From the NCBI GenBank assembly GCA_026984045.1, contig JALSSV010000043.1, forward strand, positions 1 to 61,381: 61,381 nt of DNA, written 5' to 3'. Under the pieces are notes generated by a model. The model made no database searches. It was not told the DNA's origin and was given only the letters and a program-made list of their open reading frames with translations. This DNA is from Chromatiales bacterium. GTDB lineage: Bacteria > Pseudomonadota > Gammaproteobacteria > UBA6429 > Thiohalophilaceae. The translations under genes were made by a program, and so were the position numbers. Positions 10,935 through 46,866 of the stretch are shown in pieces (within the stretch, counting starts at the first letter, position 1; each line of letters starts with the position of its first letter).

Positions 10935-10974
10935 AATTGAAAGGCAGAGGAAAGCCCCTAGTATCTTGCCTCTT

Positions 10975-31415: not shown

Positions 31416-32054
31416 CTACCGCGATATTCGGGGAGGCGGCTGATAGTTGCCGTACGGCCCCCAGCCGGGATAAGGGGATGGCGCGAACCAGCCGGGCGGC
31501 GGAGGCTGCCAGCCGTAGGCCGGCGCGGGACGCCCCCAGGCCGGCGGTGGAGCCCAGCGCGGGGGAATGTTGGGCGGCAGGGTGGCCGTATCGTTGCCGG
31601 AGGACGGGGTTTCGACACCGTTCACTGGCGGACTTGCGGGAACACGAGCCGGGCCTGCGGCAGCAGGCGGGCCGGCCACCGGCGCGGGAGACGAGGCCTG
31701 CCAAGGTTCAACAGGCGGTGCCGCCATGTGGGAAGACGTTTCCAAACCGGTTGCCGGTGGGGTTCCCTGCGTGGCATCTGCCGCCGCTTCGGTTCCGGAC
31801 GTCTCGCCCCGCTCATGCCACCAGTAGATACCGGCGATGGTGAGCGCCAGCAAGACCACGCCGGCGGCGAGGGTGCGGGTCAGACGGCGGGGGGTGATCT
31901 CCGGCATCTCGTCCGGCCGGGGCATCACGCCCATGTCATGCAGCTTCTCCTGCAGTTCGGCCTGGCGTTGATGCGCGGCGGCGTCATCCCCCCTTGTCGT
32001 GGCGTCGTCGCCCGCCGTTCGCTCCTCGTCGGAATGGACTTTTTCTTCGCTCAT
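31416..32054 (-). CDS. Single-span membrane protein with Pro-rich tail
   Basis: No known family is recognised. The 212-residue protein has an acidic cytoplasmic N-terminus (about 55 residues), one membrane segment (LAAGVVLLALTIAGIYWW), then a Pro/Ala-rich linker and a Pro/Trp/Tyr-rich end (PPRWAPPPAWGRP, GWQPPPPGWF). The tail composition echoes the other low-complexity exported proteins of the cluster. Its ATG overlaps the dynamin-like gene stop as ATGA. It is the last gene of the proposed sigma-54 operon. Confidence 0.75.
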   Translation of the reverse strand: MSEEKVHSDEERTAGDDATTRGDDAAAHQRQAELQEKLHDMGVMPRPDEMPEITPRRLTRTLAAGVVLLALTIAGIYWWHERGETSGTEAAADATQGTPPATGLETSSHMAAPPVEPWQASSPAPVAGPPAAAGPARVPASPPVNGVETPSSGNDTATLPPNIPPRWAPPPAWGRPAPAYGWQPPPPGWFAPSPYPGWGPYGNYQPPPRISR

Positions 32055-33616
32055 CGTGCGGTCTCCTCTTGCTCACCGGGTGCCCGTTCCCCGTTCGCCG
32101 GTTCCGGCTCCCGGCTTTCACTTGCTGACTCGGTATCTGCCTGAGTCATCTCCTCCGCTTCCGGCAGGGGGGCGGAGCCCGTTTCCCCGGACGGACGGGT
32201 GAAGCGATCGTTCAGCGCCTGGATCTGCCGATCCGCGGCGGCGATGATCCGTTCCAGCCGCCGCCGGGCGCGCCGGCTCCAGCCCACCGGTCGGGGACGG
32301 AATACGCTGTGCCACCAGCGGGTGTTGCGGAGAAAAGCACGCGCCAGTTGCTCGGCCTCTTCGGGCGAGGCGGCCGCCTGGCGCAGATGGCGCAGCACGC
32401 TGGCCGCGGCCCAGCGCCGAGCCAGGCCGTGCACGCCCAGGACGAAGAACAGCAACAACACCCCACCGGTGATCCAGGCAAGCGGCTCGTCCCGGTACGG
32501 CATGAGCACGGAGGGGAGGCGCAGGCCGTCCTGCCAACCGCCAAGGGCCATGCCGCCAGCCAGCAGCGCGAACACCAGCAGCCAGAGAAAACCGTCTCGC
32601 CAGAGGGTGGCCCGCAGCCAGCGATCACGGAGCTGCTGCAGGCGTGGCACCTTCACCTCCAGCAGATCCCGCGCCCGTTTCTCCAGGCTGTCGATGATCC
32701 GGTAGGCCCGCTCCACCCGCACTTCGGCCATGCGGGCATGAACGGCGGCCCGATCCTGTTCGGCCTTGCGGGCATAGCGTGCCTGCAGGGCCGGATCGGC
32801 GATGGGCACGGCCGCGTCCGGATCGTAGAGGGTGTAGAAACGGCCGGCGGTGAGGCCTTCCTGGGCCAGGGCCCGCTGCCAGGCGCCCACCACGTCCTCG
32901 GGGTTGTCTTCGCCCGCGGTGGTGTCGATCTGGTTGAGGATGTAGAGAAACTTGCTCGAATCGTGGCGATGGATGGTGCCGCCCACCAGGTGCCGGAGGG
33001 TATCCTGCATGGCGCCCGGCTCGGGATGCCGGGCATCGAAGAACACCAGCACCAGATCCGAGAGATCGATGATGTAGTCGGTCAGGCGCAGGATGGCCGT
33101 GCGCTGGGAGTCGGCATCGAAGCCGGGCGAGTCGATGAGGATCTGGCCCTTGAGCCGCTCGTGGTTGCAGGTCTTGAGCTGCAGATAGGCATCCACCCGC
33201 GCGCCCTCCCCCGGGGCGACCTTCTCCAGCTCTTCGCTGATCTGGTAGAAGGGAAAGCGGGGATCCGCGTCCAGTGCCACGCCCGGCAGCACCCGGGGCT
33301 CGCTTTCCGGCGAATAGCAGATCACCGTGAACTTGTCGTCCACCGCCTGGTTGCCGGTGGCCTGCAGGGCCTGCTCGAGATACTGATTGATGAAGGTGGA
33401 CTTGCCGGCCGAAAAGGTGCCGAGCACGGCGATCAGGGGCCACCAGGGGATCTGGGCGGCGTAGGATTGATCCCGCGGCAACAGGCCCAGCTTCCAGGCT
33501 ACCCGATCGAGCTGGCGAAAATGCCGCACGGCATCGACCAGCAGGGGATTCTCCTCACGCAGATGCTGCTCGAGCTGGCGCAGGCGCAAACGCAATTCCG
33601 GGTTCTTTGCAAACAT
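32051..33616 (-). CDS. Dynamin-like GTPase
   Basis: Membrane-associated large GTPase of the bacterial dynamin/EHD type. The 521-residue protein has P-loop GTFSAGKS at residues 66-73, DSPGF at 162-166 and NQID at 228-231. A helical stalk follows, then two membrane segments (about 344-360 and 380-397), a basic coiled region and an acidic tail. Such proteins bind, bend or fuse membranes. ATG at 33616 is 30 bases after the coiled-coil gene, and its stop overlaps the next start. Confidence 0.88.
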   Translation of the reverse strand: MFAKNPELRLRLRQLEQHLREENPLLVDAVRHFRQLDRVAWKLGLLPRDQSYAAQIPWWPLIAVLGTFSAGKSTFINQYLEQALQATGNQAVDDKFTVICYSPESEPRVLPGVALDADPRFPFYQISEELEKVAPGEGARVDAYLQLKTCNHERLKGQILIDSPGFDADSQRTAILRLTDYIIDLSDLVLVFFDARHPEPGAMQDTLRHLVGGTIHRHDSSKFLYILNQIDTTAGEDNPEDVVGAWQRALAQEGLTAGRFYTLYDPDAAVPIADPALQARYARKAEQDRAAVHARMAEVRVERAYRIIDSLEKRARDLLEVKVPRLQQLRDRWLRATLWRDGFLWLLVFALLAGGMALGGWQDGLRLPSVLMPYRDEPLAWITGGVLLLFFVLGVHGLARRWAAASVLRHLRQAAASPEEAEQLARAFLRNTRWWHSVFRPRPVGWSRRARRRLERIIAAADRQIQALNDRFTRPSGETGSAPLPEAEEMTQADTESASESREPEPANGERAPGEQEETAR

Positions 33617-33646
33617 GGTTCTCGATCTCCGGACGGGACGGGAAAC

Positions 33647-34102
33647 TCACCAGGGCATGAAACTGTTCATGAATGACATGGGCCGCGACACGCTCTGGTT
33701 CATGATCGACATGTCGTAACGCATCTGGTTGATGGACGCGTTCATGCCGCGCACATTGAGGGCCATGTCGGCCATGGTCTGGTTCTGGGCATCCATGGTC
33801 TGGGCGATGACCACCATGTTCTGCGAGATGGTTTCCATCTGCCGGCTCATGGTGATCATCTGCTCGCTGATGGCATGGGCATCCTTGCTCAGGCTGTAAA
33901 TCAGAAAGAAGCCGTAAGCGGCCAGGATGATGAAGGCGAACAGGGAGGGATAGACGATCATCTCCCAGCGCCGGGCGCTGACCATGAAGGCGGTGGACAG
34001 GCGTTCCAGTTGTCGGACCCCGCAATCCTCCGTATGGGGACAGTCCTCCGGCAGTCCACTGAGAGTGCCGATGGCAGCGGTCGGGCTCTTGGATTTGCTC
34101 AC
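33647..34102 (-). CDS. Membrane-anchored coiled-coil protein
   Basis: Family not recognised. The 151-residue protein has a soluble N-terminus with two Cys (DCPHTEDCG), one membrane segment (YPSLFAFIILAAYGFFLIYSL), then a Met/Gln/Asn-rich region with coiled-coil heptads (ISEQMITMSRQMETISQNMVVIAQTMDAQ). The C-terminus repeats Met and Asn. The start is GTG at 34102, sixteen bases after the TPR gene stop, with AGGGA upstream. It could be a partner of the dynamin-like GTPase. Confidence 0.7.
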   Translation of the reverse strand: MSKSKSPTAAIGTLSGLPEDCPHTEDCGVRQLERLSTAFMVSARRWEMIVYPSLFAFIILAAYGFFLIYSLSKDAHAISEQMITMSRQMETISQNMVVIAQTMDAQNQTMADMALNVRGMNASINQMRYDMSIMNQSVSRPMSFMNSFMPW

Positions 34103-34118
34103 GGCGCTTTCCCTGGTG

Positions 34119-35006
34119 TTAGGGTGAGGAAGACGATGCGGTTCCGGCAGACGAAGCCGCTGCCGCCGGGTCGGCATGCAGTTCGGCGGCCTTCTCCGGG
34201 GCCAGCCCTTCGATGAGTCGCAGCAGATAGCCGAGCCGGCGTTCCTCGCCCTTGGCCTGCAGGCGCCGCGCCGCTTCGTAATAGGCCTCGCCCGCCTCGC
34301 GCCAGCGACCCTGGGCGTAGTACACGTTGCCCAGTTCCCCCCACACGTCCGGATCGGCCGGATCCCGATCCAGCAGGGCCTGGTAGGCCTGAATGGCCGC
34401 CGACAGATCACCGGCCCAGTAGGCGCGGCGGGCACGATCGAGCAGCGTGGCTTCCACGCTGGCCGCCGGCACCCCCGCCTGGGCTTGCGTTTCGGCCGTC
34501 CCTGGATTGGCCTGAGCCCCCTCGTCTGCCGGGGTCGGCTCCGCCGAAGAAGAGGTGGCAGGCAGCCGCTCCGCCCGGGCAAGGGGGGGCGCCGGCGCCG
34601 ATTCGGTGAGGTGCGCCTGCGGCGCTTCCGCTCCGGCATTCTCCGCCGTCGTCGCAGGCCGGGCAGCGCTGACGGCGGGCGCGGCCTGTGTGGGCGTTTG
34701 CGCTGCCGGTTCCTCGGCGGTTTCCGTCCGGCTCGGTGTCGCGTTCGCAGTGGCCGTGGTCGTCGGCGGCTCGTTTGCGGCCTGCGTCACGGAGGCGGAT
34801 GGCGGCACGTCGTTCTTCGCCCCGCGGGGAGCCTCCGATTGCGCGACCGACGTGCCGTCCCCAACCTTGCCGAAACGGGTTTCGATCTGCTCGATTGCCG
34901 CGTTCAGCTCCGGCTTCAGGGTGTCGCGATAGACCCAGGCCGCGGCCAGGGCGGCCACCAGCAACAACGGCAGGCTGTAGCTCAACAGGGTGCGAAGGAT
35001 GTACAT
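34119..35006 (-). CDS. Membrane-anchored TPR protein
   Basis: The 295-residue protein has an N-terminal membrane anchor (YILRTLLSYSLPLLLVAALAAAWVY), a long Ala/Thr/Pro/Glu-rich linker of roughly 130 residues, and a C-terminal TPR region (RRAYWAGDLSAAIQAYQALLDRDPADPDVWGELGNVYYAQGRW). TPRs bind other proteins, so it is a candidate scaffold. ATG at 35006 begins the anchor. It lies 32 bases after the ParA gene and 16 before the coiled-coil gene. Confidence 0.75.
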   Translation of the reverse strand: MYILRTLLSYSLPLLLVAALAAAWVYRDTLKPELNAAIEQIETRFGKVGDGTSVAQSEAPRGAKNDVPPSASVTQAANEPPTTTATANATPSRTETAEEPAAQTPTQAAPAVSAARPATTAENAGAEAPQAHLTESAPAPPLARAERLPATSSSAEPTPADEGAQANPGTAETQAQAGVPAASVEATLLDRARRAYWAGDLSAAIQAYQALLDRDPADPDVWGELGNVYYAQGRWREAGEAYYEAARRLQAKGEERRLGYLLRLIEGLAPEKAAELHADPAAAASSAGTASSSSP

Positions 35007-35038
35007 GGCGGGTCTGTCCTCGAAAGTGGTGGCCGTAA

Positions 35039-35701
35039 TCAGGCCGCGGAACGGCGTCGCCGCCTCGGCCGGTGTTGGGGATAAAGCGTACTGGCGAAGG
35101 CGTGGAATTCCGCCGCGGCCTTGCTGCGCGGCGCCAGCTCGAACACCGCCAGGCCCTCGCTCAGAGAACGGCGGTAGAGCGTGCGCTGGCAGAGCCGTTT
35201 GTCCAGCACCGTGATGCCCTCGAGCAGGCCGAGGGCTTGCGCCGTTTCGTCCGACTCGCGCACGGCACGATGGGTATCGGCGCGGTTGACGAAGGCCTCT
35301 ACCGGGGGCCGGTCCCGACCGGCCAGGGCTTCGTCGATGATCGACAGAAAGCGCTGGGTGGCCCAGACGTCGGGCTGGCTGGGCGGCACCGGAATCAGGA
35401 TCCGATCCGCCACCGAGAGCGCATCGCGCATCCCTGGCATGTTGGCCGCGCCCACGTCCACCAGCACTTCGCCCGGGTGATAGGCGAGCTGTTCGGGCAG
35501 CGCCGTGTCCTGCTGATAGACCTGCAGCGGCGGCGTGTATCCCTCTTCCTGGCGCACCGCGCCCACGTCGGCCAGGGTGCACTGGGGATCGAGATCGTAG
35601 GTCACCACCGGCTGGGCGCAGGACTGCAGCCACAGGGCCAGGTTGAAGACCACGGTACTCTTGCCCGAGCCCCCCTTGAGATTGGCGACCACGGTGATCA
35701 T
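35039..35701 (-). CDS. ParA/MinD-type ATPase
   Basis: The 220-residue protein has the deviant Walker A KGGSGKST at residues 9-16 with the signature lysine K9, DLDPQ after the second strand, and VDVGAAN as Walker B. Such ATPases position plasmids, chromosomes, chemotaxis arrays or organelles. No parB or replication genes are near, and it sits inside a membrane-protein operon, so positioning of a structure is likelier than DNA partition. The C-terminus is an Arg-rich tail that may touch DNA. Confidence 0.88.
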   Translation of the reverse strand: MITVVANLKGGSGKSTVVFNLALWLQSCAQPVVTYDLDPQCTLADVGAVRQEEGYTPPLQVYQQDTALPEQLAYHPGEVLVDVGAANMPGMRDALSVADRILIPVPPSQPDVWATQRFLSIIDEALAGRDRPPVEAFVNRADTHRAVRESDETAQALGLLEGITVLDKRLCQRTLYRRSLSEGLAVFELAPRSKAAAEFHAFASTLYPQHRPRRRRRSAA

Positions 35702-35714
35702 GCCGGCCGCCCCG

Positions 35715-36491
35715 TCAGTGCCCCGCCGGCGGCAGGCTGGCCGCCGGCGTGATTGGCCGGTAGCCGGCCGGAATCCGGAACAGCGCCGGATCCTGGGGAC
35801 CGACGCGGATGTGCTTCAGCTCGCGGACATAACCGCCCGGCAGTGCCTCGCGGATGGCGATGTGCAGCCGGGGATCGTGCCATTGCCAGGACACCCGGGT
35901 CTGGCCGTCGGGACGGGTCTGGCGAACTTCCCACTTCTCCACCTTGCGCCCGTCGAGGGTTTCATGGCCCGTCAGACGCATCTCCACCAGGCTGCCGTCG
36001 GGAAACAGCTGGCGCACGGGAAAACGCTTTTTCACGTCGATCCAGTGCAGGCTGCGCACTTCGCGGCCATTGGCCTGCGCCACGAATTCCCATTTCTCGG
36101 CCGCGCGGCCGTTGACCGTCTCCTTGCCGAGCAGGTGACAGGTCACACCCGGCACCCCCTGGCAAGGACTGGTGCCCGGCGGCGCCGGCGTCTGCCGCTG
36201 GGGCAGCGGCGCACCGCCACCGGGCTGAATCAGGTATTCCTTGCGGGCCGGGTTGATCAGCACCCGCTCCCCCTTGCGGACGATCTCGATGAAACGCTGA
36301 CCGTCCATCTCGTATTCACTGCGCACGGCATCCGCCCCCACATGGATGCGGGCCTGCATGGGTGGCCGATCCGGTGTGCGCTGGATCGCATCGGCCGAAA
36401 ACTGGATGATCCCCTTGGCGGCCTGGGCACCCGGCACCAGCAGCCACCCGAACAGCAGCGCGAGACTGCACCATAGGGTCGACGGTTTCAT
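35715..36491 (-). CDS. Exported LolA/DUF4412-like protein
   Basis: The 258-residue protein has a signal peptide (STLWCSLALLFGWLLVPGAQA|A). The mature part has two repeated half-barrel-like blocks (DAVRSEYEMDGQRFIEIVRKGERVLINPARKEYLI, then EKWEFVAQANGREVRSLHWID and EKWEVRQTRPDGQTRVSWQW). This resembles periplasmic lipid-binding folds such as LolA/LolB and DUF4412, but the assignment is tentative. It is 13 bases upstream of parA. Confidence 0.6.
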   Translation of the reverse strand: MKPSTLWCSLALLFGWLLVPGAQAAKGIIQFSADAIQRTPDRPPMQARIHVGADAVRSEYEMDGQRFIEIVRKGERVLINPARKEYLIQPGGGAPLPQRQTPAPPGTSPCQGVPGVTCHLLGKETVNGRAAEKWEFVAQANGREVRSLHWIDVKKRFPVRQLFPDGSLVEMRLTGHETLDGRKVEKWEVRQTRPDGQTRVSWQWHDPRLHIAIREALPGGYVRELKHIRVGPQDPALFRIPAGYRPITPAASLPPAGH

Positions 36492-36510
36492 TCCGGATTC
36501 TCTCCTGCGT

Positions 36511-36532
36511 TTGACGGCGCCTCAGGCGTCAA
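36511..36532 (-). promoter_or_regulatory. Hairpin in the gap after the Gly/Tyr-rich gene
   Basis: TTGACG and CGTCAA pair outside an inner CCT/AGG stem with a small bulge. There is no following U run, so it is more likely an RNA-stability or attenuation hairpin than a strong terminator. Confidence 0.4.
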
Positions 36533-36581
36533 TGACGGAGAGGCGCACATCCCTGTGCTCTCTCCCCTCGGACCGGTGGCG

Positions 36582-36947
36582 CTACTTCTTGCCACCCTGG
36601 TTCTGCTGGGGTGCCGGCGGCGGCGCACCGTAGCCGTAACCCGGATAGGCACCGTAAGCCGGCGGTGGAGGCGGCGGATAGCCATAGCCCGGCCCCCCGT
36701 AATAGGGGCCATAGCCGTAACCGGGCCCCCAGTAGCCAGGGCCGTAACCGTAGTAGCCCGGATAGCCATAGCCATTGCCGTAACCACTGCCGCGGCCGCT
36801 GAAGTTGAACGACATGTCGCCGTTCCCCCAGCCGTTGCCCCAGCCATCCCAGGGGCCACCGCCCCACCAGGCATTGGCCGAGGAGATCGGCAGAGCAACG
36901 GCTCCCACGAGCGCCAGCGCGCCCAAGGCCTTCTTCATCTTGCTCAT
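36582..36947 (-). CDS. Gly/Tyr-rich exported protein resembling sulfur globule proteins
   Basis: The 121-residue protein has a signal peptide (KKALGALALVGAVALPISSANA|W). The mature part is almost all Gly, Tyr, Pro, Trp and Asn, with repeated GYG, GPGY and PGYG units. Sulfur globule envelope proteins of purple sulfur bacteria have this composition, size and export signal, but low-complexity sequence makes homology hard to prove. ATG at 36947 has AAGGAA eight bases upstream. It lies within the sigma-54 cluster. Confidence 0.6.
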   Translation of the reverse strand: MSKMKKALGALALVGAVALPISSANAWWGGGPWDGWGNGWGNGDMSFNFSGRGSGYGNGYGYPGYYGYGPGYWGPGYGYGPYYGGPGYGYPPPPPPAYGAYPGYGYGAPPPAPQQNQGGKK

Positions 36948-37110
36948 GGTCTTTTCCTTCCGTTTCGTTGACGTCTTGACTCACGACATGGCATGACCAC
37001 GTCACCTGCTCCCTGAAGGGTTCTCCGGAGCCGAACGCAGGGAGCCACGTCCAGTCCCGTCTTGCCCGTGTCCCGCCGTTAGGCGGAGACCGTGCCCGTT
37101 GCCGCGGCCG

Positions 37111-37674
37111 CTACCAGTACCTTGGCCAGTAACCGGGCAACATGCCCGGCGCCGCCCAGGCCCCGGCGGGGCCGGCCAGCCCCGGCAGATAGAGGCCGCC
37201 CAGATAGGGATCGGCAGCCAGCGCCGGTGGCGGGGTCGGCAGCAGAAGCAGCGGATCCAGCGGATCGCCGGCAGGACCGGGCAGCGGGCCCACCGGCGGC
37301 GGATAGTTGTAATAGGCGGGGCGGAAAAACTCGGCGTTGCCGCCACGTCGGCTGTCAACACGTTGGACGTAGTCACCGCCCGTCCAGGGATTGGCACTGT
37401 CCACGCCACGGGGCAGCGGCGCCGGTCGCCTTGGCCGATAGTCGTCACGCCGGGCGAAACCGTAGGGCGAGAAATACCGTCCCTTGGTGCTCCAGCCCGT
37501 CTCGTTGCTGGTGCGGCGCCAGATCCGGTTTTCCGAATAGCAGCAGGTGGGCGAGCCCTTGCCGGTGGCATAGACCGGTTCCTGCCCGACGGGATCCCCC
37601 CATTCGGCCGCCGTGGCCGCCAGGGCCGCAGTGACCCCGATGACGGCGATACCGATTCGTGGACTTGTCTTCAT
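37111..37674 (-). CDS. Exported Pro/Gly-rich protein of unknown function
   Basis: The 187-residue protein has a signal peptide (SPRIGIAVIGVTAALAATAA), then a charged region with paired cysteines (SPTCCYSENR), a Trp/Arg/Tyr-rich middle (WRRTSNETGWSTKGRYFSPYG), and a Pro/Leu/Gly-rich end finishing LPGYWPRYW. ATG at 37674 has GGGAG eight bases upstream. No family is recognised. It lies between the repeat protein and the sulfur-globule-like gene. Confidence 0.7.
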   Translation of the reverse strand: MKTSPRIGIAVIGVTAALAATAAEWGDPVGQEPVYATGKGSPTCCYSENRIWRRTSNETGWSTKGRYFSPYGFARRDDYRPRRPAPLPRGVDSANPWTGGDYVQRVDSRRGGNAEFFRPAYYNYPPPVGPLPGPAGDPLDPLLLLPTPPPALAADPYLGGLYLPGLAGPAGAWAAPGMLPGYWPRYW

Positions 37675-37704
37675 GTGCGTCTCTCCCGTTGTGTTTCGCA
37701 CACC

Positions 37705-38334
37705 TCAATGCGGCCGGCCGCCCCACGGTCCGGGTCGCGGACCCCACTGGGGAGGCGGCCCCTGGTGATACCCGCCACCCGGTTGTGCCCATTCGGGGCG
37801 CTGGGGCGGCATGGGCCGCTGGCCCGGCTGCGCCCATTCGGGCCGCTGGGGCGGCATGGGCCGCTGCCCCGGCTGCGCCCATTCGGGCCGCTGGGGCGGC
37901 ATGGGCCGCTGCCCCGGCTGTGCCCATTCGGGACGCCGGGGCGGCATGGGCCGCTGCCCCGGCTGTGCCCATTCGGGACGCCGGGGCGGCATGGGCCGCT
38001 GGCCCGGCTGTGCCCATTCGGGCCGCTGGGGCGGCATGGGCCGCTGGCCCGGCTGTGCCCATTCGGGCCGCTGGGGCGGCATGGGCCGCTGGCCCGGCTG
38101 TGCCCATTCGGGACGCCGGGACGGCATGGGCCGCTGCCCCGGCTGGCCGGCCCATGCAGGATGCGGCGGCGATTGCAGGCGGTAGGGACCGGGAGGCGGC
38201 GGAACATGGCTGCCCGCCCCGGTCGCGACGTTGTCGGCAGCCGCGGACGAACCGGATGCCAGGGCCAGCAGAAGCAGCACGAGGGAGCCGGTCGGCATGC
38301 TGCCCGGCAGGGATTTGCGGCGGAATGGTTTCAT
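37705..38334 (-). CDS. Exported 15-residue repeat protein
   Basis: The 209-residue protein has a signal peptide (GSLVLLLLALASGSSAAA|D) followed by eight tandem copies of QPGQRPMPxxRPEWA, where xx is PQ, PR or SR. It ends with a Gly/Pro/Trp-rich tail (GPPPQWGPRPGPWGG). It is strongly basic and Pro-rich, probably extended or polyproline-like. ATG at 38334 is 22 bases after the RND permease stop. No homologous family is recognised; repeat number is likely to vary between strains. Confidence 0.75.
   Translation of the reverse strand: MKPFRRKSLPGSMPTGSLVLLLLALASGSSAAADNVATGAGSHVPPPPGPYRLQSPPHPAWAGQPGQRPMPSRRPEWAQPGQRPMPPQRPEWAQPGQRPMPPQRPEWAQPGQRPMPPRRPEWAQPGQRPMPPRRPEWAQPGQRPMPPQRPEWAQPGQRPMPPQRPEWAQPGQRPMPPQRPEWAQPGGGYHQGPPPQWGPRPGPWGGRPH
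37784..38143. repeat. 45-bp tandem repeat, eight copies
   Basis: Eight in-frame 45-bp units encode the 15-residue repeats above. Units differ by a few mainly silent changes, plus codon swaps giving PQ, PR or SR, which points to recent expansion by recombination or slippage. Confidence 0.9.
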
Positions 38335-38356
38335 GGGAAGAGGCCTCTCGGTCGAT

Positions 38357-41300
38357 TCAATCGGTCTTGATCCGGATCCCGCGGCGTTTCTTCTTGCTCG
38401 CGGGTTTCCGGGCGGTGTGGCCGGCTGCCGAAGCAGCGGTCTTCTTTTTCGCCCGCTTGCGGGGGGGCTTCTTGCGCACGGGTTTCGCTTCGGCTTCGGT
38501 TTTCTTCTCGGCCGGATTCGGATGCGCCGCCGGGGCCGTTTCTGCCTGCGCCTGCGTTTCGGCGCCGCGGCCTGCCGGAGAAGTCGGCGGGGTTTGTGGC
38601 CCCGGCGCCGAAGGCGGGGTGTCATCACCACCCGAGGAAGGCGGGGACGGCGGAGAACGGAAGCGGGCCAGCCAGCCCTTTACGAGGGAGGAGAGCAGCA
38701 GCCAGATCCCGCGCAGGACGTAGAAGATCCACATCAGGGCCCCGATCACGCGTCCATAGATGCGCATCCACAGGGGCAGGGACGGCGCCGTTGCCGCCGC
38801 CCCTTCGCAGCTGCCCGTGGGACAAATCCCGTCTGCGTCGGGATCCGCGGGATGGCCTTCGACACCGGCCAGCCGGTAGAACTGTTTGCGGGCGCTGATG
38901 CACCCCAGGGGCACCACGACCAGCGTGAGAATGGTGGCCACGCCGGTACCGAACAGCAGGCTGACCGCCATCCCCTGGAAGATGGGATCGCCGACGATGG
39001 CCAGCGAACCCAGCATGACCGTCAGGGCGGTGATGACGATGGGGCGCATGCGTACCTGGCCGGCCGCAATCACCGCCTCCCGGATCGACTGGCCCTTTTC
39101 CACTTCACCCTTGACGAATTCCACCAGCAAGATGGAATTGCGCACGATGATGCCGGCCAGCGCGATGAAGCCGATCATCGAAGTGGCGGTGAAGTCCACG
39201 TCCATCAGCCAGTGGCCCGGGATGATGCCGATCAGGGTCAGGGGAATGGGAGCCATGATCAGACCCGCCAGGACGAAGTTCTTGAACTCCCAGACGATCA
39301 GGCCGTAGATGAGGACCAGCGCGGCCATGAAGGCGATGCCCATGTCGCGGAAGGTTTCATAGGTCACGGTCCACTCGCCGGTCCATTCGATGGCGGAATG
39401 GCTGTCGTCCGCCGGCGGGCCGATCAGGCCGTCGGGCATGCCCGAGACGCGCACGCCATCGGGAGCCACGTAGTCCTCGAGGCGATCCTCCACCTCGAAC
39501 ATGCCATAGATGGGCGCACCAAGCCGCCCTTCCATCTCCCCCGTGACATATTCGATGGGCCGCAGATCCTTGTGGTAGATGACCGGCTCTTCCCAGTCCT
39601 GCTCAAAATGGCCGAGTTCGGCCAGGGGCACGCGGCTGCCGCTGGCGGAAGGGATCGGCAAACCGCGCAGCCGATCGAGCTGCGAGCGAACCGGCAGCGG
39701 CACCTGAATCACGATGTAGGTGGGTTCACGCACCACCCCCCGCTTCACGTCTCCCAGCCGGTGGCCGCCCAGGGCCATGGCCAGGTTGCGGTTGATGGTA
39801 TCCACGGTGATGCCGCGACGAGTCGCCTTGTCCATGTCCACCACGAAGCGCCAGTACGCATAGGGCTGGGTCAGGTAGTTGTCCACGTCCACGATGTTGG
39901 GCGCATCACGGAACATGGCGGTCAGATCCCGGGCCACCTGGCGGCGAACCTCGGCCGTGGGCCCATAGACCTCGGCGACCACGGTCTGCAACACCGGTGG
40001 CCCCGGGGGCATCTCCACCACCTGGATGCTGCGCACTCCCAGCCGCTCGGCCAGCGGTGCGAGACGGTGACGGGCAGCCACGGCAATCGCATGGCTGCCC
40101 CGCTCCCGGTCGTCCTTGTTCAGGAGCATCACCTGGATGTCGGCCTGCCAGGGATTCTGGCGCAGGTAGTAATGGCGCACCATGCCGTTGAAATTGAACG
40201 GCGACGCGGTGCCCACGTAGGACTGCAGGGCGGTGACTTCCGGAATTCTGCGCAACTCCGCGACCAGACGTCGGGTCACGTTGGCGGTGACCGGCAGGGC
40301 CGTGCCCTCGGGCATGTTCACCACCACGTTGAACTCCGGCTTGTTGTCGAAGGGCAGCATCTTCACCGGCACCGCCTTGGTATAGAACAGGAAGCAGGAC
40401 AGCACCGTGACGAGGATGAGACCGAACAGGAACGTCAGCCCCAGCTTGCGGTTGTTGCACAAGGGCAGCATGCACGGCCGGTAGAATCGCCGGATCCGCT
40501 CCCGCACCCGGGCTTCGCGCTGTTCGGCCTTTTGCAGGGCGCCCAGGCGCGGGCGCACGCGCAGCGCCAGCCAGGGCACGAACACGAAGGCCGCGATCAG
40601 CGAGAAGAACATGGCCGCAGAGCCGAGCACCGGGATCGGTCGCATGTAGGGTCCCATCATGCCGGACACGAAACCCATGGGCAGCATGGCCGAGATGATG
40701 GTCAGGGTGGCCAGCACCGTGGGATTGCCCACTTCGCGCACCGCATCGATGGCGATGTCCATGCGGGTCTGGCCGACCTCCAGCCAGCGACGGAAGATGT
40801 TCTCCACCACCACGGCGGCATCGTCCACCAGGATGCCGATGGCGAACACCAGCGCGAACAGGCTCACCCGGTCGATGGTGTAGTCCAGCACCCAGGCGGC
40901 CCACACGGTCACCAGGATCACGATGGGAATGATGACGATGACCACCGAGGCCGCACGCAGCCCCAGGCCGATGAGGCACAGGATGCTCACCGCCACCGCC
41001 GCCTCGAACAACGCCTCCAGCAGTTCATTGACCTTCTGGTTGGCAGTGGCCCCGTAGTTGCGGGTGATCTCCACCTTCACGTTGTCGGGAATCAGTCCGC
41101 CCTTGAGCGAGTCGAGCTTTTTCAGAATGGCATTGGCCACGGTCACGCCGTTGCTGCCGATCTTCTTGGCCACGGCCACCGTCACCGCCGGGGCGCCGTC
41201 CACCTGTGGCGTTCCCGCAGCCCCGCTGAACTGGTTGACCATGTGGCGGGTCTCTTCCGGTGCCAGGAACACCCGGGCCACGTCACGCACGTAGATGGGC

Positions 41301-42121
41301 ATGCCCTGGCGCACGCCCACCACCAGCCGCGCCACGTCCTCGGCACTGTGGATGAAGCGCCCGGTCTGCACCCGGAAGGCCTTGTCACCCCGCTCCACCC
41401 GGCCGGCGGGCTGCTCGGCATTGGCGGCGCGGATGGTCGCGGCGATCTGCTCCGCGGCGATGCCATATCCGGCCAGGCGTTCGGGCAGGAATTCCACCCG
41501 GATCTGTTCGGCGCGTCCGCCATCCACGAAGCCCTTGCCGGTGTTGGGCACTTCCTCCAGATGCTGCAGGACGTCGAGCCCCAGGGTGCGCAGGGTGGCG
41601 TCGTCCACGTCCTGCGACCAGAGGGTGACGGTGACCACCGGCACATCGTCGATGCCGATGGGCTTGACGAGGGGATGCGAGACGCCGGGGGGAATGCGAT
41701 CCAGGTTGGACTGGATCTTGTCGTGCACCTTGACGATGGAAGGGCCCAGTTCCTCCCCCACCTCGAATTCCACGGTCACGATTCCCGAGCCCCGCTGGGT
41801 GGCCGAATAGACGTGGCGTACCCCGGGGATCTCGCTCATGAGCAGTTCCAGCGGCTCGGTCACCAGGCTGGTTACCTGTTCGGCGGAGGCGCCGGGATAC
41901 TGGAGGAAGATGTCCACCATGGGAACGGAAATCTTGGGATCTTCCTGGCGAGGCGTGAAGAACAGGCCCAGCATCCCCACCGCCAGGAAGGCCATCATCA
42001 GCAAGGGCGTCACCGGCGAGTTGATGAACTGACTGGCCATGCGTCCGGCGATGCCGGGATCCACCGGGGTGCCGGTCGTGGCGTCGGTGGCTTCTGCGCT
42101 GGAGGCGGTTTCGTTGCTCAC
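38357..42121 (-). CDS. RND efflux permease with Lys-rich cytoplasmic tail
   Basis: Proton-driven inner-membrane transporter of the AcrB/CusA superfamily. The 1254-residue protein has the first helix (PVTPLLMMAFLAVGMLGLFF), a porter domain, and the GILVDDAAVVVENIFRR proton-relay helix. After the normal C-terminal helices it adds a further hydrophobic stretch (IYGRVIGALMWIFYVLRGIWLLLSSL) and about 100 residues of Pro-rich then Lys/Arg/Ala-rich tail (PRKRAKKKTAASAAGHTARKP). The start is GTG at 42121, 29 bases after the adaptor gene. The substrate is unknown; cluster context suggests a lipid or hydrophobic compound. Confidence 0.9.
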   Translation of the reverse strand: MSNETASSAEATDATTGTPVDPGIAGRMASQFINSPVTPLLMMAFLAVGMLGLFFTPRQEDPKISVPMVDIFLQYPGASAEQVTSLVTEPLELLMSEIPGVRHVYSATQRGSGIVTVEFEVGEELGPSIVKVHDKIQSNLDRIPPGVSHPLVKPIGIDDVPVVTVTLWSQDVDDATLRTLGLDVLQHLEEVPNTGKGFVDGGRAEQIRVEFLPERLAGYGIAAEQIAATIRAANAEQPAGRVERGDKAFRVQTGRFIHSAEDVARLVVGVRQGMPIYVRDVARVFLAPEETRHMVNQFSGAAGTPQVDGAPAVTVAVAKKIGSNGVTVANAILKKLDSLKGGLIPDNVKVEITRNYGATANQKVNELLEALFEAAVAVSILCLIGLGLRAASVVIVIIPIVILVTVWAAWVLDYTIDRVSLFALVFAIGILVDDAAVVVENIFRRWLEVGQTRMDIAIDAVREVGNPTVLATLTIISAMLPMGFVSGMMGPYMRPIPVLGSAAMFFSLIAAFVFVPWLALRVRPRLGALQKAEQREARVRERIRRFYRPCMLPLCNNRKLGLTFLFGLILVTVLSCFLFYTKAVPVKMLPFDNKPEFNVVVNMPEGTALPVTANVTRRLVAELRRIPEVTALQSYVGTASPFNFNGMVRHYYLRQNPWQADIQVMLLNKDDRERGSHAIAVAARHRLAPLAERLGVRSIQVVEMPPGPPVLQTVVAEVYGPTAEVRRQVARDLTAMFRDAPNIVDVDNYLTQPYAYWRFVVDMDKATRRGITVDTINRNLAMALGGHRLGDVKRGVVREPTYIVIQVPLPVRSQLDRLRGLPIPSASGSRVPLAELGHFEQDWEEPVIYHKDLRPIEYVTGEMEGRLGAPIYGMFEVEDRLEDYVAPDGVRVSGMPDGLIGPPADDSHSAIEWTGEWTVTYETFRDMGIAFMAALVLIYGLIVWEFKNFVLAGLIMAPIPLTLIGIIPGHWLMDVDFTATSMIGFIALAGIIVRNSILLVEFVKGEVEKGQSIREAVIAAGQVRMRPIVITALTVMLGSLAIVGDPIFQGMAVSLLFGTGVATILTLVVVPLGCISARKQFYRLAGVEGHPADPDADGICPTGSCEGAAATAPSLPLWMRIYGRVIGALMWIFYVLRGIWLLLSSLVKGWLARFRSPPSPPSSGGDDTPPSAPGPQTPPTSPAGRGAETQAQAETAPAAHPNPAEKKTEAEAKPVRKKPPRKRAKKKTAASAAGHTARKPASKKKRRGIRIKTD

Positions 42122-42150
42122 GTCGTCGTGTCCTGCCCGTTGTGCACGCG

Positions 42151-43485
42151 TCAGAAACCGCCCGCGGGTCGCGGCACCCAGTTGGAGTTCATGCCCGGCG
42201 GGGGACTGGCGAGGATCCGTTCACCGGCGCGCAGGCCGGAGAGCACCGCCACCAGATCGGAGCCGAGTTTCTGCCCCAGGCGCACCAGCCGCAGCGAAGG
42301 TTTGCCCCTTTCGTCGATGGCGAACACGGCCGGCAGGCTGCCCCGCCAGACGATGGCCGCGGCGGGCACCACCGGCACGCGGGTCTCGGGCACACTGCTG
42401 TCGGGGATGGCCACTTCCGCATACATGCCCGGTCCCCCCGGGATGCCCTGAGGCAGATCCAGTTTCACCGTGACCGTATGACGCAGCGCATCAGCCACGG
42501 GAAAGATCTGCGCCACCCGGGCATTGACCTTGATATCCCCCACATCGAGGGTGGCGGGCAGAATCATGTCCTGCTGCAGGCCGGGCATGAGCCGGGCCGG
42601 GACTTCGAGCCGGATTTGCAGATCGTTGGTATCGGCATACTTGAGCAGCGGCTGGCCGGGCTGCACCGTGTCACCGACTTCCACCAGTTTCTTGAGAATC
42701 ACGCCATCGAAGGGGGCGATTGAGCGGGTGTCGATGAGCTTGGCGTCGATCTCGTCGATCTTCGCGCGCATGGCCATGACCTGGCTGCTGGCCTGGCCCA
42801 CGCGGCTGCCGCGGGAATAGAGATCCACCTGCCGTTCGATCCAGGGATTGCCGTAACGCCAGGCACGCCAGGTGTCGTTGTAACCGCCGCCCCCGCCGAA
42901 GAACCGCTCGAACATGGAGGGAAACAGGCCCATGCTGGCACTGCGCCGGGGTTCGAAATAGCGGGCCAGCTTCTCGCCCGGTGCCCAGAACTCGCGAGCG
43001 TATTGCAGACGGGCATCGGTATAGCCATAGGTGGTGGCCCGCAACCGGGCAAGGATCTGGCGCCGCTTGGCCAGCAGATCGTCGTCGTCCAGGGCCACCA
43101 GCACCTGGTTGATGCGGAAGCGATCCCCCTCCTCGCCGGCGATGAACTGCACGCGACCCGGCAACTGGGCGGTGAGGGTCACCTCGCGATACGGGATCAC
43201 CGTGCCGCCGATGACCACCTCGGCGCCAAGCGGCCGACTGACCACCGTGATCACCCCGCCCGGTCCGCTCGGCATGCCGTAGCGCTGGCTCTGCCGGCCC
43301 GGCGGCGCAAAGCCGTAGGGATTGGCCGTCGAGCGGGAAACGAAGGCACCGTTGCTTGCTTCGTGGCCGGTCGCTTCGGGACGGTAGGGATGGTCACCAA
43401 ACGCCGCCAGGGCCGTCTGGGCGGCCAGCAGCAAGGCCCCCATGGCCACGCCCCTGCGACGAATCGGGCCGGTTCTCATCATCAT
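42151..43485 (-). CDS. RND periplasmic adaptor (membrane fusion protein)
   Basis: Bridges the permease to the outer membrane. The 444-residue protein has a signal peptide (GVAMGALLLAAQTALAA|F), a lipoyl-type barrel split around a helical hairpin (VTLTAQLPGRVQFIAGEEGDRF ... SIAPFDGVILKKLVEVGDTVQPGQPLLKYAD), and a C-terminal beta-barrel (MYAEVAIPDSSVPETRVPVVPAAAI). The hairpin contains an odd Gly-rich insertion (ERFFGGGGGYNDTW). No outer-membrane TolC-like gene is in the window. Confidence 0.88.
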   Translation of the reverse strand: MMMRTGPIRRRGVAMGALLLAAQTALAAFGDHPYRPEATGHEASNGAFVSRSTANPYGFAPPGRQSQRYGMPSGPGGVITVVSRPLGAEVVIGGTVIPYREVTLTAQLPGRVQFIAGEEGDRFRINQVLVALDDDDLLAKRRQILARLRATTYGYTDARLQYAREFWAPGEKLARYFEPRRSASMGLFPSMFERFFGGGGGYNDTWRAWRYGNPWIERQVDLYSRGSRVGQASSQVMAMRAKIDEIDAKLIDTRSIAPFDGVILKKLVEVGDTVQPGQPLLKYADTNDLQIRLEVPARLMPGLQQDMILPATLDVGDIKVNARVAQIFPVADALRHTVTVKLDLPQGIPGGPGMYAEVAIPDSSVPETRVPVVPAAAIVWRGSLPAVFAIDERGKPSLRLVRLGQKLGSDLVAVLSGLRAGERILASPPPGMNSNWVPRPAGGF

Positions 43486-43540
43486 GCCTGCTGTCCTTTC
43501 TGCCTGGGAGGGTGCATCACGGGGAGAATCAGGGTGGCGG

Positions 43541-43939
43541 TTATTGCACCCGTCCCATGACGGCGAAACTCTTGATGAAGGGGCCGGCCATGCGCGGATC
43601 CTTGATCATCGCGGCATAGTCGCCCTGCTTGAACTTGAGCTTGCGGGCGGTATAGGCCATGCCCAGGCCGACCATCCCCGGCGGCTTCTGGGCCCACTTC
43701 TGCCAGTCGGCGAGGCTGGCCCGCAGATCCCAGTTGAGGGGCTGGCCGTCATAGGCGCCGGCCTCGGTGACCTGGCCATTCTCGACCCGGACGAAGCCCC
43801 GCGGGGCCTCCTCGTCGTCGACGCCATAACCGATGGTGGAATTGAAGCCGATCTGGGACAGGGCGCCGGCCAGTTCGGGCTCGGCATTCCAGGCTTCCTT
43901 GAAGCCGGCCATCCATTCAGCGGAAAACATCTCGGACAT
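43541..43939 (-). CDS. SCP2-type lipid-binding protein
   Basis: The 132-residue protein matches the sterol-carrier-protein-2 fold: FSAEWMAGFKEAWNAEPE at the start, VENGQVTEAGAY in the sheet, and KLKFKQGDYAAMIKDPRMAGPFIKSFAVMGRV at the end, where SCP2 proteins form their hydrophobic tunnel. No signal peptide is seen, so it is cytoplasmic. ATG at 43939 has GGGGGAAAG upstream. It is the first gene after the sigma-54 promoter, which suggests that the operon handles a hydrophobic ligand. Confidence 0.78.
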   Translation of the reverse strand: MSEMFSAEWMAGFKEAWNAEPELAGALSQIGFNSTIGYGVDDEEAPRGFVRVENGQVTEAGAYDGQPLNWDLRASLADWQKWAQKPPGMVGLGMAYTARKLKFKQGDYAAMIKDPRMAGPFIKSFAVMGRVQ

Positions 43940-44015: not shown

Positions 44016-44031
44016 GGCAAGTCCCGTGCCA
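44016..44031 (-). promoter_or_regulatory. Sigma-54 promoter of the SCP2-RND-...-dynamin operon
   Basis: On the minus strand TGGCACG, GGAC, TTGCC: a full match to TGGCACG-N4-TTGC at correct -24/-12 spacing. The start would be near 44004, giving a leader of about 65 bases before the SCP2 gene. A sigma-54 activator gene lies divergent just upstream. Confidence 0.85.
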
Positions 44032-44164: not shown

Positions 44165-44176
44165 TGTTGCGCAACA
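44165..44176. promoter_or_regulatory. Upstream activator palindrome, distal site
   Basis: TGTTGCGCAACA is a perfect 12-bp dyad whose centre is 94 bases (about nine helical turns) from that of the proximal site. It also lies just upstream of the activator gene, so it could serve autoregulation. Confidence 0.55.
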
Positions 44177-44227: not shown

Positions 44228-45574
44228 ATGTCCGATTCCGTCCATTTCGCCCCCCTTCTCGAAGCCGTGGTCTCCTACATCGACGAGGGCGTGATCATCG
44301 CCGACCCCCGCGGCCACGTGATCTACCAGAATCCGGCCGCCGGCCACCTGCTCGGCCTGCCCGGAAACGAACCGGTGGAACGGCTCAACGACATCGGCCG
44401 CTTCAACCTCCAGCGGGCCCTGCTGCGTGCCGCCATCGATGCCGGGGAAGTGGACGCCGCCGGCATGCCCAGCGGCAACTTCGTCAGTTTCGAGGAGTGT
44501 CTGCGCATCGGTGACGATCGCCGTTACCTGGAATTCCACAGCGGGCTGGTGGCCAATCCCGGCACGCGCGATCGCCTGCGCCTGATTCTGATCCGGGATC
44601 GCACCGAACAGCGCCGGCTGGAAGCGGTGTTCGAAACCGGCAGTTCGGATTTCGAGACCCGCGATCCACGCATGCTGGAGATCGTCAACCGCATCCAGCA
44701 GATTGCCGCCACCAACGCCTTCGTGTTGCTGCAGGGCGAATCGGGCACCGGCAAGACCCAACTGGCGCGGCTGCTGCACCGGGCCAGCGCCCGCGCCCGC
44801 CACGCCTTCGTGGAGGTCAATTGCGCCGCCATTCCCGAGACCCTGCTGGAATCGGAACTGTTCGGCCACGTGAAGGGAGCCTTCACCGGCGCCAGCCAGA
44901 ACCGCAGCGGTCGTTTCCAGGCCGCCGATCACGGCACCCTGTTCCTCGACGAGGTGAGCGAGATCCCCCTGCATCTCCAGGCCAAGCTGTTGCGGGCCAT
45001 CCAGGATCAGGAGTTCGAGCCGGTGGGTTCCGACAAGACCGTCAAGGTGGACGTGCGGATCATCGCGGCCGCCAACCGCAACCTGCGCGACATGGTGGAC
45101 GCCGGCCAGTTTCGCGCCGATCTCTACTACCGGCTGGCGGTGATTCCGCTCACGGTACCGGCCCTGCGCGACCGTCCCGGGGACATTCCCCTGCTGATCC
45201 GCCATTTCAGCCAGCGGCTCGCCGGCCGCGGTTATCCGGCCGAGGTGGGGATCAGCCCCGAGGCCATGCGCATGCTCATGAACTATCCCTGGCCGGGCAA
45301 CGTGCGGGAACTGGAGAACGCCGTGGAGCACGGCCTGATCTGCGCGGTGGACGGCACAATCCGGCCCGAGAGCCTGCCTCAGGACATCTACGAATTCGCC
45401 GGCAACACGCCCGAGGCTGCACCACGCGAAGAATCGGCCGAAAACCGGGAGATGCGTGAAGCCATCGAAGAGGCCCTGAAGCGCGCCAACGGCAGCAAGG
45501 CCATGGCAGCGCGCATCCTGGGCGTGGACCGCTCCACCCTGTGGCGGCGGATGCAGCGGCTGGGATTGTCGTAA
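44228..45574 (+). CDS. Sigma-54-dependent PAS-AAA+-Fis transcriptional activator
   Basis: Enhancer-binding protein. The 448 residues hold a PAS domain (about 5-125: [27 protein letters not shown]), an AAA+ domain with Walker A GESGTGKT at 170-177, the sigma-54 contact loop GAFTGA at 217-222 and Walker B LFLDEV, and a C-terminal Fis-type helix-turn-helix ([21 protein letters not shown]). ATG at 44228 is chosen because the longer frame runs through AT-rich regulatory DNA. There is no receiver domain, so control is by a PAS ligand or partner. Its divergent position makes the SCP2-RND operon its probable target. Confidence 0.93.
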
Positions 45575-45583: not shown

Positions 45584-45619
45584 CAGGCTGTCGCAAAACG
45601 GTGTTTTTCAACAACCGGT
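45584..45619. repeat. Solo hairpin module related to the 20148 element
   Basis: The sequence CAGGCTGTCG...CGGTG...TTTTTCAACA closely matches the reverse complement of the first hairpin of the five-hairpin element at 20148-20182. It sits between two convergent genes and ends at the hydrolase stop codon, so it may act as a shared terminator. Confidence 0.6.
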
Positions 45620-46866
45620 CAGGGGTCGGGCGACTTTTCGACGAGAGGTTGTAACCGCCGGTTCAGGTAGTCCAGGAAAGCCGGCTCGGAAAGAATGCCG
45701 GCGTGCGTGGCCTGAAATCCGGCCAGATGATTCGCGCCGGCGCGCACGAAGGGCGGAAGCTGGCTGGACAGCGGCACCACGCCATCCGAATCCGCATCGT
45801 CCTGATAACCATACACCACGTCCCAGAACACCTCGGGCGGCCATTCGGCCGAAGCCAGCGCCTGCAGGAAACGGCTGCCCGTGGCCACGTCCTTCCACGA
45901 GGGGACGATGACCGGGGAGCGCTGAACCCCCAGGCGGGCACTGTCCATTCCGCCAAAGGGGGTGTTCACGGTCATCACGTAAACGATGCGATTGGCCTGT
46001 TCCGGATATCGCTGGCGCCACTTCAGCACAAACGACCGGGCCACCAGCCCACCCATGCTGTGGGCAACGATGGCCAGCTTCGGAACATCGTAGCGCGCCA
46101 CCAGATAGGCCAGGGCCCGGACCAGCTCGTCGCTCACCGCGGCGAGACGCATGCCGCTGGGATAGGCATGGAACCAGGGCGCGAAATGCTGGCGATCGAG
46201 ATGTTTCAACACCGGCAGCCAGTCTCCGGGGCCGCCATTGGCACCATGGATCAGGAGGAGCGGTATTTTTTCCGGATCGTAAGGCTCGAGCCAGTACAGC
46301 CCGGTGCCGACGAAACGGGCGTACATGTTCGGCCGCCACAGACCGATGCGGCCCATGACGCGGGAGAAAACCGGATTGTCGAGCGTGACAATCCGCCCGA
46401 TGTTTTCATGGTGACGGCGGGGAGGCCAGAGACGAGGGCCGCCGTTGCGGCGGGTCTGGATCTTTTCCGATGCGAACGAAAATTCGATGCGCCGGCGTGC
46501 CCGCATGCCGATGCGCACCGGGGTGGGGAAGCCATACCAGATCAGCGGCTCGGAAGCCTGGCGCAGGCCATCCCGATTGGTGTCCAGGAAGGCGCCAACG
46601 AGGTAGGTTCCCGGCGAAAGTTCCAGCCGGAAGCGTCCCCCCGGATGAACGGCCGTCTGTGCGACCACTTGCATGATCTCCGGCGACACCTGCCGACAGG
46701 CCACCAGTATCAGGGGCGCGTTTCGTTCTTCCTCCAGTCGAACTCTTCCCTCAAGCTGACCACCAAACAGGAATTCGCCGGCTTCATCACCCAAATCCCG
46801 CCAGATCCCCGCCTGCGCGGCAAGCGCGAGCTGCAGCAGGATCAGCACCGAGAAGATTCTGTACAT
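45619..46866 (-). CDS. Exported alpha/beta-hydrolase (lipase-like)
   Basis: The 415-residue protein has a signal peptide (YRIFSVLILLQLALAAQA|G), an N-terminal beta-rich region of about 150 residues, then an alpha/beta hydrolase: oxyanion motif LLLIHGANGG (about 204-212) and nucleophile elbow AHSMGG with Ser270. DGVVPLSSQ and a late His (HAGILSE) fit the catalytic acid and base. ATG at 46866 begins the signal peptide. It resembles PGAP1-like/triacylglycerol lipases; the substrate is unknown. A TAAAAT -10 lies about 85 bases upstream. Confidence 0.82.
   Translation of the reverse strand: MYRIFSVLILLQLALAAQAGIWRDLGDEAGEFLFGGQLEGRVRLEEERNAPLILVACRQVSPEIMQVVAQTAVHPGGRFRLELSPGTYLVGAFLDTNRDGLRQASEPLIWYGFPTPVRIGMRARRRIEFSFASEKIQTRRNGGPRLWPPRRHHENIGRIVTLDNPVFSRVMGRIGLWRPNMYARFVGTGLYWLEPYDPEKIPLLLIHGANGGPGDWLPVLKHLDRQHFAPWFHAYPSGMRLAAVSDELVRALAYLVARYDVPKLAIVAHSMGGLVARSFVLKWRQRYPEQANRIVYVMTVNTPFGGMDSARLGVQRSPVIVPSWKDVATGSRFLQALASAEWPPEVFWDVVYGYQDDADSDGVVPLSSQLPPFVRAGANHLAGFQATHAGILSEPAFLDYLNRRLQPLVEKSPDP

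Follow-up and report, generated by a model that had tools for sequence, protein, structure and literature searches.

A conserved operon of sulfur oxidisers in which the tail of an RND permease is co-inherited with a ParA-type ATPase: a candidate machine for sulfur globules

What might a bacterium build with a lipid-carrier fold, an export pump, low-complexity secreted proteins, a ParA-type ATPase and a dynamin-like GTPase encoded together? The question is raised by a stretch of 61,381 nucleotides (the window) from the Chromatiales bacterium assembly GCA_026984045.1, contig JALSSV010000043.1, in which twelve open reading frames (ORFs), each with one terminal stop, occupy the minus strand from 31416 to 43939. 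As reported here, this gene set is conserved in the class of the window and outside it, it keeps company with the genes of sulfur oxidation, and its permease of the resistance-nodulation-division (RND) family carries a C-terminal tail that is co-inherited with the ParA-type ATPase; the original prediction made for this DNA overlooked both the tail and its link to ParA. On balance, and by a modest preference, we read the operon as an inner-membrane machine that builds and places periplasmic sulfur globules, with the RND tail as the partner of ParA. The genes are listed below in the order of their transcription; G and L numbers in the text are our handles for genomes and loci.

43541 to 43939, minus strand: gene 1, protein of 132 amino acids with a predicted SCP2 fold (predicted structure, Foldseek)
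42151 to 43485, minus strand: gene 2, RND periplasmic adaptor, a membrane fusion protein (MFP; TIGR01730, 137.6 bits, cut-off 94.9)
38357 to 42121, minus strand: gene 3, RND permease of 1254 amino acids (PF00873, 490 bits)
37705 to 38334, minus strand: gene 4, exported Pro/Arg/Gln-rich tandem-repeat protein (from its sequence; composition class enriched in these operons)
37111 to 37674, minus strand: gene 5, exported Pro/Gly/Tyr-rich protein (from its sequence; start moved to 37674)
36582 to 36947, minus strand: gene 6, exported Gly/Tyr/Pro-rich protein, like sulfur-globule proteins in composition
35715 to 36491, minus strand: gene 7, exported protein with a LolA-like predicted fold (AlphaFold2, Foldseek)
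35039 to 35701, minus strand: gene 8, ParA-type ATPase with a basic C-terminus (RRRRR) and the sequence KGGSGKS; nearest solved structures ParA/ParF
34119 to 35006, minus strand: gene 9, tetratricopeptide repeat (TPR) protein with an N-terminal hydrophobic stretch (TPR_16; sequence)
33647 to 34102, minus strand: gene 10, membrane coiled-coil protein, its C-terminus SRPMxFMNxFMPW largely conserved
32051 to 33616, minus strand: gene 11, dynamin-superfamily GTPase with hydrophobic segments (Dynamin_N, E-value 2e-12)
31416 to 32054, minus strand: gene 12, Pro-rich protein with one hydrophobic segment, overlapping gene 11 by 4 bases

The gene set and its conservation

We surveyed 274 genomes of the window's class, with thresholds placed at gaps in the score lists (1300 bits for the RND permease, 196 for ParA and 543 for the dynamin-like protein). 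The permease of this system (the system RND) was found in 54 of these genomes, with scores of at least 1309 bits against at most 1287 for its paralogues, and gene 1 was matched in 58. An SCP2 gene, free-standing copies included, was present in 48 of the 54 RND-positive genomes and in 10 of the 220 RND-negative ones; the corresponding numbers are 44 and 6 for ParA and 42 and 22 for dynamin, the Fisher tests on these and on the dsrA counts given below being uncorrected for kinship. Rarity of such co-occurrence would have counted against the original prediction, and it was not observed. The dynamin-like GTPase has other settings too, since 22 class genomes carry its gene without the system RND, and 15 of these have no dsrA.

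The arrangement of the genes is conserved as well. In the 36 long-form loci with enough flanking sequence, the MFP gene lies upstream of the RND gene in 35 and the SCP2 gene in 12; downstream are ParA in 26, the coiled coil in 24, LolA in 20 and TPR in 15, with dynamin nearby in 22. Some places in the genomes stand under two locus handles (L101 and L235, for example). For loci holding at least two of the LolA, ParA, TPR and coiled-coil genes, taken with no rule on side or strand, the order LolA-ParA-TPR-coiled coil, downstream and on the RND strand, is kept in 25 of 27 long-form and all 8 short-form loci, the exceptions being an inverted coiled-coil match (L135) and an upstream TPR match (L247). 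The first of these loci has an activator, SCP2, MFP and an RND whose tail is without the motif described below, and no ParA; its contig, of 727 kb, was placed in a Hyphomicrobiaceae bin, which may reflect either transfer of the operon or mis-binning. When 299 genomes were searched across the phylum, a draw in which the window's genome was the only member of its class matched, the system ParA turned up in 39 genomes of other classes; around ParA in 18 such loci there was an RND in 13, LolA in 13 and the coiled-coil gene in 17. Small secreted ORFs rich in Gly, Pro, Tyr, Asn, Trp or Gln, called by crude, purpose-made rules for signal and composition, numbered 70 of 308 inside the operons against 1 of 280 in their flanks, and such an ORF occurs in 34 of 64 operons. 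Because the order is conserved and these ORFs are enriched, the grouping is more than chance.

Several of the proteins that the original prediction named from the letters could be matched to families or folds, some of them by predicted structure. Gene 1 appears to have an SCP2 fold missed by family models: its AlphaFold2 model (predicted local distance difference test score, pLDDT, of 92) matched 2cx7 in Foldseek with an E-value of 6.8e-7 and a template modelling (TM) score of 0.78, with UbiJ-SCP2 lower in the list, and it has no match among Pfam or NCBIfam families. A comparison of an SCP2 profile with the sequences of solved structures gave nothing convincing (best E-value 0.64), and the fold comparison alone worked. 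Genes 2 and 3 show the features of an AcrB-type tripartite RND pump in that the ACR_tran domain and an MFP are both present, as the original prediction had it, and gene 3 is 55 to 72% identical to 14 relatives. Gene 5 has no family match in the Pfam and NCBIfam scans, and small proteins that by eye resemble gene 6 occur in relatives. Gene 7 looks LolA-like on the strength of its model (pLDDT 83), for which Foldseek returned LolA, RseB, the lipid carrier LprG and ependymin-related proteins; the earlier naming of a LolA-like protein may hold as to the predicted fold, with LolA3 as top match at an E-value of 1.3e-7, but the structural fit to the open half-barrel is loose (best-hit TM only about 0.4), and the Pfam and NCBIfam scans gave no family match.

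Family matches agree with the earlier naming of ParA, TPR and dynamin-like proteins. In gene 8 the deviant Walker A motif of ParA, KGGxGK followed by S or T, is present, with K9, G10, G11, G13, K14 and S15 invariant in 10 sequences. The protein is of the ParA type and is not the NCBIfam equivalog NF041546, since its score of 125.3 bits lies below the cut-off of 180. Gene 11 matched Dynamin_N at 47.8 bits (cut-off 27) with a mean column identity of 64% in 7 sequences, and at L049 a gene that by eye is similar to gene 12 comes after the dynamin gene. Like the EHD/dynamin remodellers, gene 11 has Dynamin_N, and EHD4 is its closest solved sequence (E-value 6e-7); it differs from EHD in its hydrophobic segments near the C-terminus, and there is no EH domain among its Pfam matches.

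The association with sulfur oxidation

The company that the system RND keeps points to sulfur. Strong dsrA matches (E-value below 1e-30; 94 genomes, 87 of them above the curated cut-off) were present in 49 of the 54 RND-positive genomes of the class against 45 of the 220 RND-negative ones (odds ratio 38, p 3e-22, kinship ignored), and all five RND-positive genomes that lack dsrA carry soxB above its cut-off. Outside the class, dsrA was above the cut-off in 37 of the 39 ParA-positive genomes (the exceptions are G317 and G472). Hosts named to genus among the matches listed at 49% identity or more include Thiorhodococcus, Allochromatium, Chromatium, Thiohalocapsa, Halochromatium and Thiocapsa, together with Thiomargarita, Venteria, Thiofilum, Thiothrix, Leucothrix, Sedimenticola and Vesicomyosocius; Hydrogenovibrio and Sulfuritalea are hosts too. 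In the available part of PMC10386293, the Chromatiaceae, Thiothrix, Thiomargarita and sulfur-oxidising endosymbionts are given as formers of intracellular globules, the envelopes of which consist of secreted structural proteins. The genus-named hosts are mainly sulfur-globule formers. For the genera outside the groups just named, globule formation is general background. The dsrA association inside and outside the class and the named hosts lend support to the original prediction's guess at a sulfur globule, on which the operon might act.

Surface structures are one alternative destination for the products of these genes. The operon might instead build a sheath or stalk outside the cell, or a matrix on its surface, for attachment or the handling of extracellular sulfur, and simply happen to be common in sulfur oxidisers. 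Secreted Gly/Pro/Tyr-rich proteins and an RND-MFP pump could be put to such use, and the 45 dsrA-positive genomes without the RND are compatible with it. Among the hosts, however, are purple phototrophs and the symbiont of a clam (ways of life that are general background), and no feature that we tested ties the operon to the surface, so that we consider this explanation quite improbable.

The smallest loci bear on a second alternative. The Vesicomyosocius genome retains the RND and MFP genes (L116), as do the small genomes G109 and G226 (L260 and L261); these two genes stand alone at the three loci, with no linked ParA, dynamin or LolA. We take Vesicomyosocius to belong to the same clade as SUP05. 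Tomography has found periplasmic globules in the SUP05 bacterium 'Ca. Thioglobus autotrophicus', and SUP05 genomes are without dynamin, as far as the available part of that report goes (PMC6509183). Retention of the pump by itself is what might be expected if the RND served efflux or envelope repair, against hydrophobic or reactive sulfur (S8, polysulfide) or metal sulfides, with no direct role in globules. MFP and RND are the classic efflux families, and in Azospira suillum the RND genes rise in H2S oxidation, for which the authors suggest metal sulfide toxicity in the part of the paper available (PMC5358917). Efflux leaves the secreted low-complexity proteins, ParA and the motif of the RND tail unexplained, and none of the twelve genes could be recognised as encoding an outer-membrane factor (gene 4 being outside the family scan); we hold it to be unlikely.

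Two loci place the system near genes that by eye are those of sulfide dehydrogenase. In Allochromatium humboldtianum (L102, 2135 to 8464), the operon has neighbours that by eye are fccAB and nadA, and its dynamin gene is divergent. At L251 (G056, 5854 to 11859), a tail-less paralogue of the system RND and an MFP are followed by a multihaem cytochrome and by fccA-fccB, also read by eye, which links sulfide dehydrogenase to a minimal version of the system. A search for the A. vinosum locus tags near fccAB found no paper.

The permease tail and ParA

What might ParA position? A candidate partner lies at the end of gene 3:

38360 to 38896, minus strand: C-terminal tail of gene 3, 179 amino acids of low complexity, rich in Lys and Arg, with one hydrophobic segment (from the sequence)
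38366 to 38386, minus strand: conserved tail motif RRGIRIK (consensus RRGIRLK; from the motif count and the tracking of ParA)

Most system RNDs extend about 110 to 350 residues past the core in low-complexity, usually Lys/Arg-rich sequence that ends in RRGIRLK. The motif pattern, composed after the tails had been seen and later widened in its first letter from R or K to R, K or W, occurs in 60 of 66 tails of at least 100 amino acids, against 0.7 expected in shuffles, at a median distance of 6 residues from the C-terminus. Other RNDs have it in none of 45 tails, but those tails are short (median 20 amino acids).

On a tree of the RND core, the motif and the presence of ParA anywhere in the genome agree in 69 of 72 rows, 56 having both and 13 neither. 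The motif occurs without ParA in three rows (G088, which is 88% complete with a short contig, a Leucothrix metagenome-assembled genome, or MAG, and a Sulfuritalea MAG), and ParA without the motif in none. The tree shows at least 8 changes in the motif, and ParA changed in the same direction in all 8 independent pairs (sign test p 0.008); random pairings average 7.7 pairs in which ParA follows the motif. The 72 rows are taken from 98, from which 3 outgroup rows, 10 short or second copies and a list of 13 others were omitted; the list comprises rows with a cut or masked tail or with a ParA unmatched to the copy in question, G056 with its frameshifts, and G154, represented by a second copy only. 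If G056 and G154 are restored as motif-negative and ParA-positive, the counts for both, neither, motif alone and ParA alone become 56, 13, 3 and 2, with 6 to 8 of 9 pairs in agreement and none opposite. Absences of ParA forecast beforehand in named genomes were right in five of five cases (the match in Thiofilum, at 79 bits, was weak). The motif was afterwards found in an RND of five more genomes with ParA (T. drewsii, Halochromatium, MAG MASpbin.6, Sedimenticola BM503 and MAG Site_C13); Thiocapsa KS1, with its tail masked, was not judged. A third system RND of Halochromatium (L357, 7047 to 11081) has a long tail without the motif and lies, by eye, near nitrogenase cofactor genes.

Such a pattern might also arise if ParA and the tail never touched and were lost jointly, along with whole parts of the operon, in reduced or specialised lineages; some of the ParA-negative hosts have small genomes (G109, G226 and L116), and the motif changed state only 8 times. 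This explanation seems rather doubtful to us in view of G080, G205 and L098, which keep the activator, MFP, RND, LolA, TPR, coiled coil and dynamin at the locus and have lost both the tail and ParA, and of G141, which retains a tail with a decayed motif and has no ParA, its sister row G254 having both motif and ParA. That tail-less RNDs are simply cut-off sequences was rejected for G080, G205 and L098, where the operon continues, and kept for cut contigs.

The partners of ParA-type ATPases bind through basic, disordered termini, according to the available parts of PMC10241942 and PMC12204374. As judged from its sequence, the RND tail fits the role of such a partner, and because ParA partners bind in this way we propose the RND complex as the cargo of ParA; the company that the RND keeps leads us to propose, further, that this cargo would be the site of sulfur-globule assembly. 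The machine that we favour might operate as follows. A sigma-54 activator, encoded beside its promoter as described below, would turn the genes on in response to some signal. The SCP2 and LolA-like proteins, with their predicted folds, might carry hydrophobic cargo (lipid or elemental sulfur) on opposite sides of the inner membrane, and the RND-MFP pump would transfer it to the periplasm, where the exported Gly/Pro/Tyr-rich proteins, which have suitable composition and a signal-like start, might coat the deposit as known Sgp proteins do. The dynamin-like GTPase and the anchored TPR and coiled-coil proteins might shape or brace the membrane around the deposit. ParA, bound to the nucleoid, would grip the basic RRGIRLK end of the tail and so provide for the spacing and inheritance of assembly sites. 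A more specific version, which we offer only tentatively, is that the RND permease itself is the cargo adaptor of ParA: held by its tail at the cytoplasmic face, it would let the motor space and segregate the periplasmic globule sites through the inner membrane, with the SCP2 and LolA-like proteins supplying elemental sulfur, as a cargo resembling lipid, to the growing globule.

Known systems resemble this one in parts. HpnN, for hopanoids, and BstABC, for sterols, likewise join an RND permease with the handling of hydrophobic lipids; we know of no ParA, dynamin or secreted repeat proteins in either. The McdA-McdB system of carboxysomes is similar in that a ParA-type ATPase is encoded with its presumed cargo and in that the terminus of the partner is basic and of low complexity, but there the terminus is the N-terminus, whereas here its part would be played by the C-terminal tail of an RND permease in the inner membrane (available parts of PMC12204374 and PMC10241942). 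Unlike the cargo of other ParA/MinD systems, the cargo here would be an envelope assembly. SgpA-D of Allochromatium vinosum are secreted structural proteins of a globule former, to which the products of genes 4 to 6 may be comparable in composition and, by a crude signal rule, in export; sgpD is said to adjoin a gene for an exporter of hydrophobic or amphiphilic compounds, but it is apparently a separate transcription unit, and the available part of the source mentions no ParA, dynamin, SCP2 or LolA partner (PMC10386293). The RND-SQR operon of Azospira suillum PS (Dsui_3440-3443) has an RND and an MFP, is tied to sulfide oxidation and comes from a globule former; it differs in having four genes that include a sulfide:quinone oxidase, the comparison being made by description, with the other operon genes unnamed in the available part of the report (PMC5358917). 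A search of the literature, with most subscription journals outside it, found no paper describing the operon, in agreement with the original prediction that no described system has this gene set. To our knowledge, neither the assembly of genes nor a transporter tail as the partner of ParA matches any known system. Each of the families is known by itself, and the function of the assembly (the substrate, the contact between ParA and the tail, the role in globules) is one that we infer from the genes.

A number of observations weigh against our preferred reading of a globule-building and globule-placing machine. Blind forecasts of the presence of ParA were right in two of four cases, the failures being the Sulfuritalea and Leucothrix MAGs. 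A hydrophobic segment (hydropathy of at least 1.6) occurs in 39 of the 66 tails, and if the tail crosses the membrane once, the motif is periplasmic and beyond the reach of ParA; by the positive-inside rule, the positive charge of the tail speaks against a membrane pass and does not settle the topology. The 45 dsrA-positive class genomes without the system RND mean that sulfur oxidation can proceed without it, and soxB was found in 11 of the 12 genomes in which it was sought. We know of no intracellular globules in Hydrogenovibrio or Sulfuritalea. Deletion of the A. suillum RND-SQR operon, which is likened to the present system by family only, left the rate of sulfide oxidation unchanged, and sgpD in A. 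vinosum has the apparently separate transcription already mentioned (available parts of PMC5358917 and PMC10386293). Inspection of A. humboldtianum by eye showed no SgpD-like gene near its operon or near its next RND paralogue, so that we claim no link to SgpD. The exporter gene beside sgpD is presumably of the RND kind. Expression, localisation and mutant data for the genes of this operon were not found in the literature.

Beyond a few envelope proteins, the nucleation, coating, placement and inheritance of sulfur globules are poorly known, and a gene set conserved across classes of the phylum would supply a candidate machine for them. If the proposal is true, a transporter tail as the partner of ParA would widen the range of cargo moved by ParA motors.

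Operon layout and sigma-54 control

The twelve genes are closely spaced, as originally described. From gene 1 to gene 12 the gaps are 55, 29, 22, 30, 163, 90, 13, 32, 16, 30 and -4 bases, the fourth being 30 with the start of gene 5 set at the ATG at 37674. Upstream lie:

44017 to 44031, minus strand: sigma-54 -24/-12 promoter TGGCACGGGACTTGC (TGGCAC-N5-TTGC; conserved where the activator is present)
44165 to 44176, strand unassigned: palindrome TGTTGCGCAACA, putative activator-binding site, with half-sites also at 44071 and 44188
44228 to 45574, plus strand: divergent sigma-54 activator with PAS, AAA+ (GAFTGA) and Fis helix-turn-helix parts (PF00158, 235 bits; PAS_8; HTH_8)

The promoter foreseen ahead of the operon is there as an exact site, reading TGGCAC-N5-TTGC from 44031 to 44017 and the sole exact match in the window. 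Such a site alone is weak evidence, because one-mismatch sites occur at the level of chance (5 found against 6.35 expected in the window), and its conservation was examined for this reason. The activator, in the translation of which GAFTGA can be read, is adjacent and divergent in 18 system loci (L101 and L235 being one place), and 13 of the 18 have, at most 350 bases upstream, a site that scores 9 or 10 of 10. Of the system loci without the activator, 2 of 66 have a near-exact site of this kind, and such sites were seen at none of the 31 loci that belong to other RNDs and in 34 of 2300 control windows; 12 loci with too short an upstream sequence were dropped from this survey. Since conservation of the -24/-12 site goes with the presence of the activator, sigma-54 control has good support, on sequence grounds, at the locus of the window and appears to be lineage-specific, confined to a part of the relatives; the activator adjoins the operon in 8 of the 36 long-form loci. 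Beyond the activator, an alpha/beta hydrolase is encoded on the minus strand at 45619 to 46887, with no link to the operon seen.

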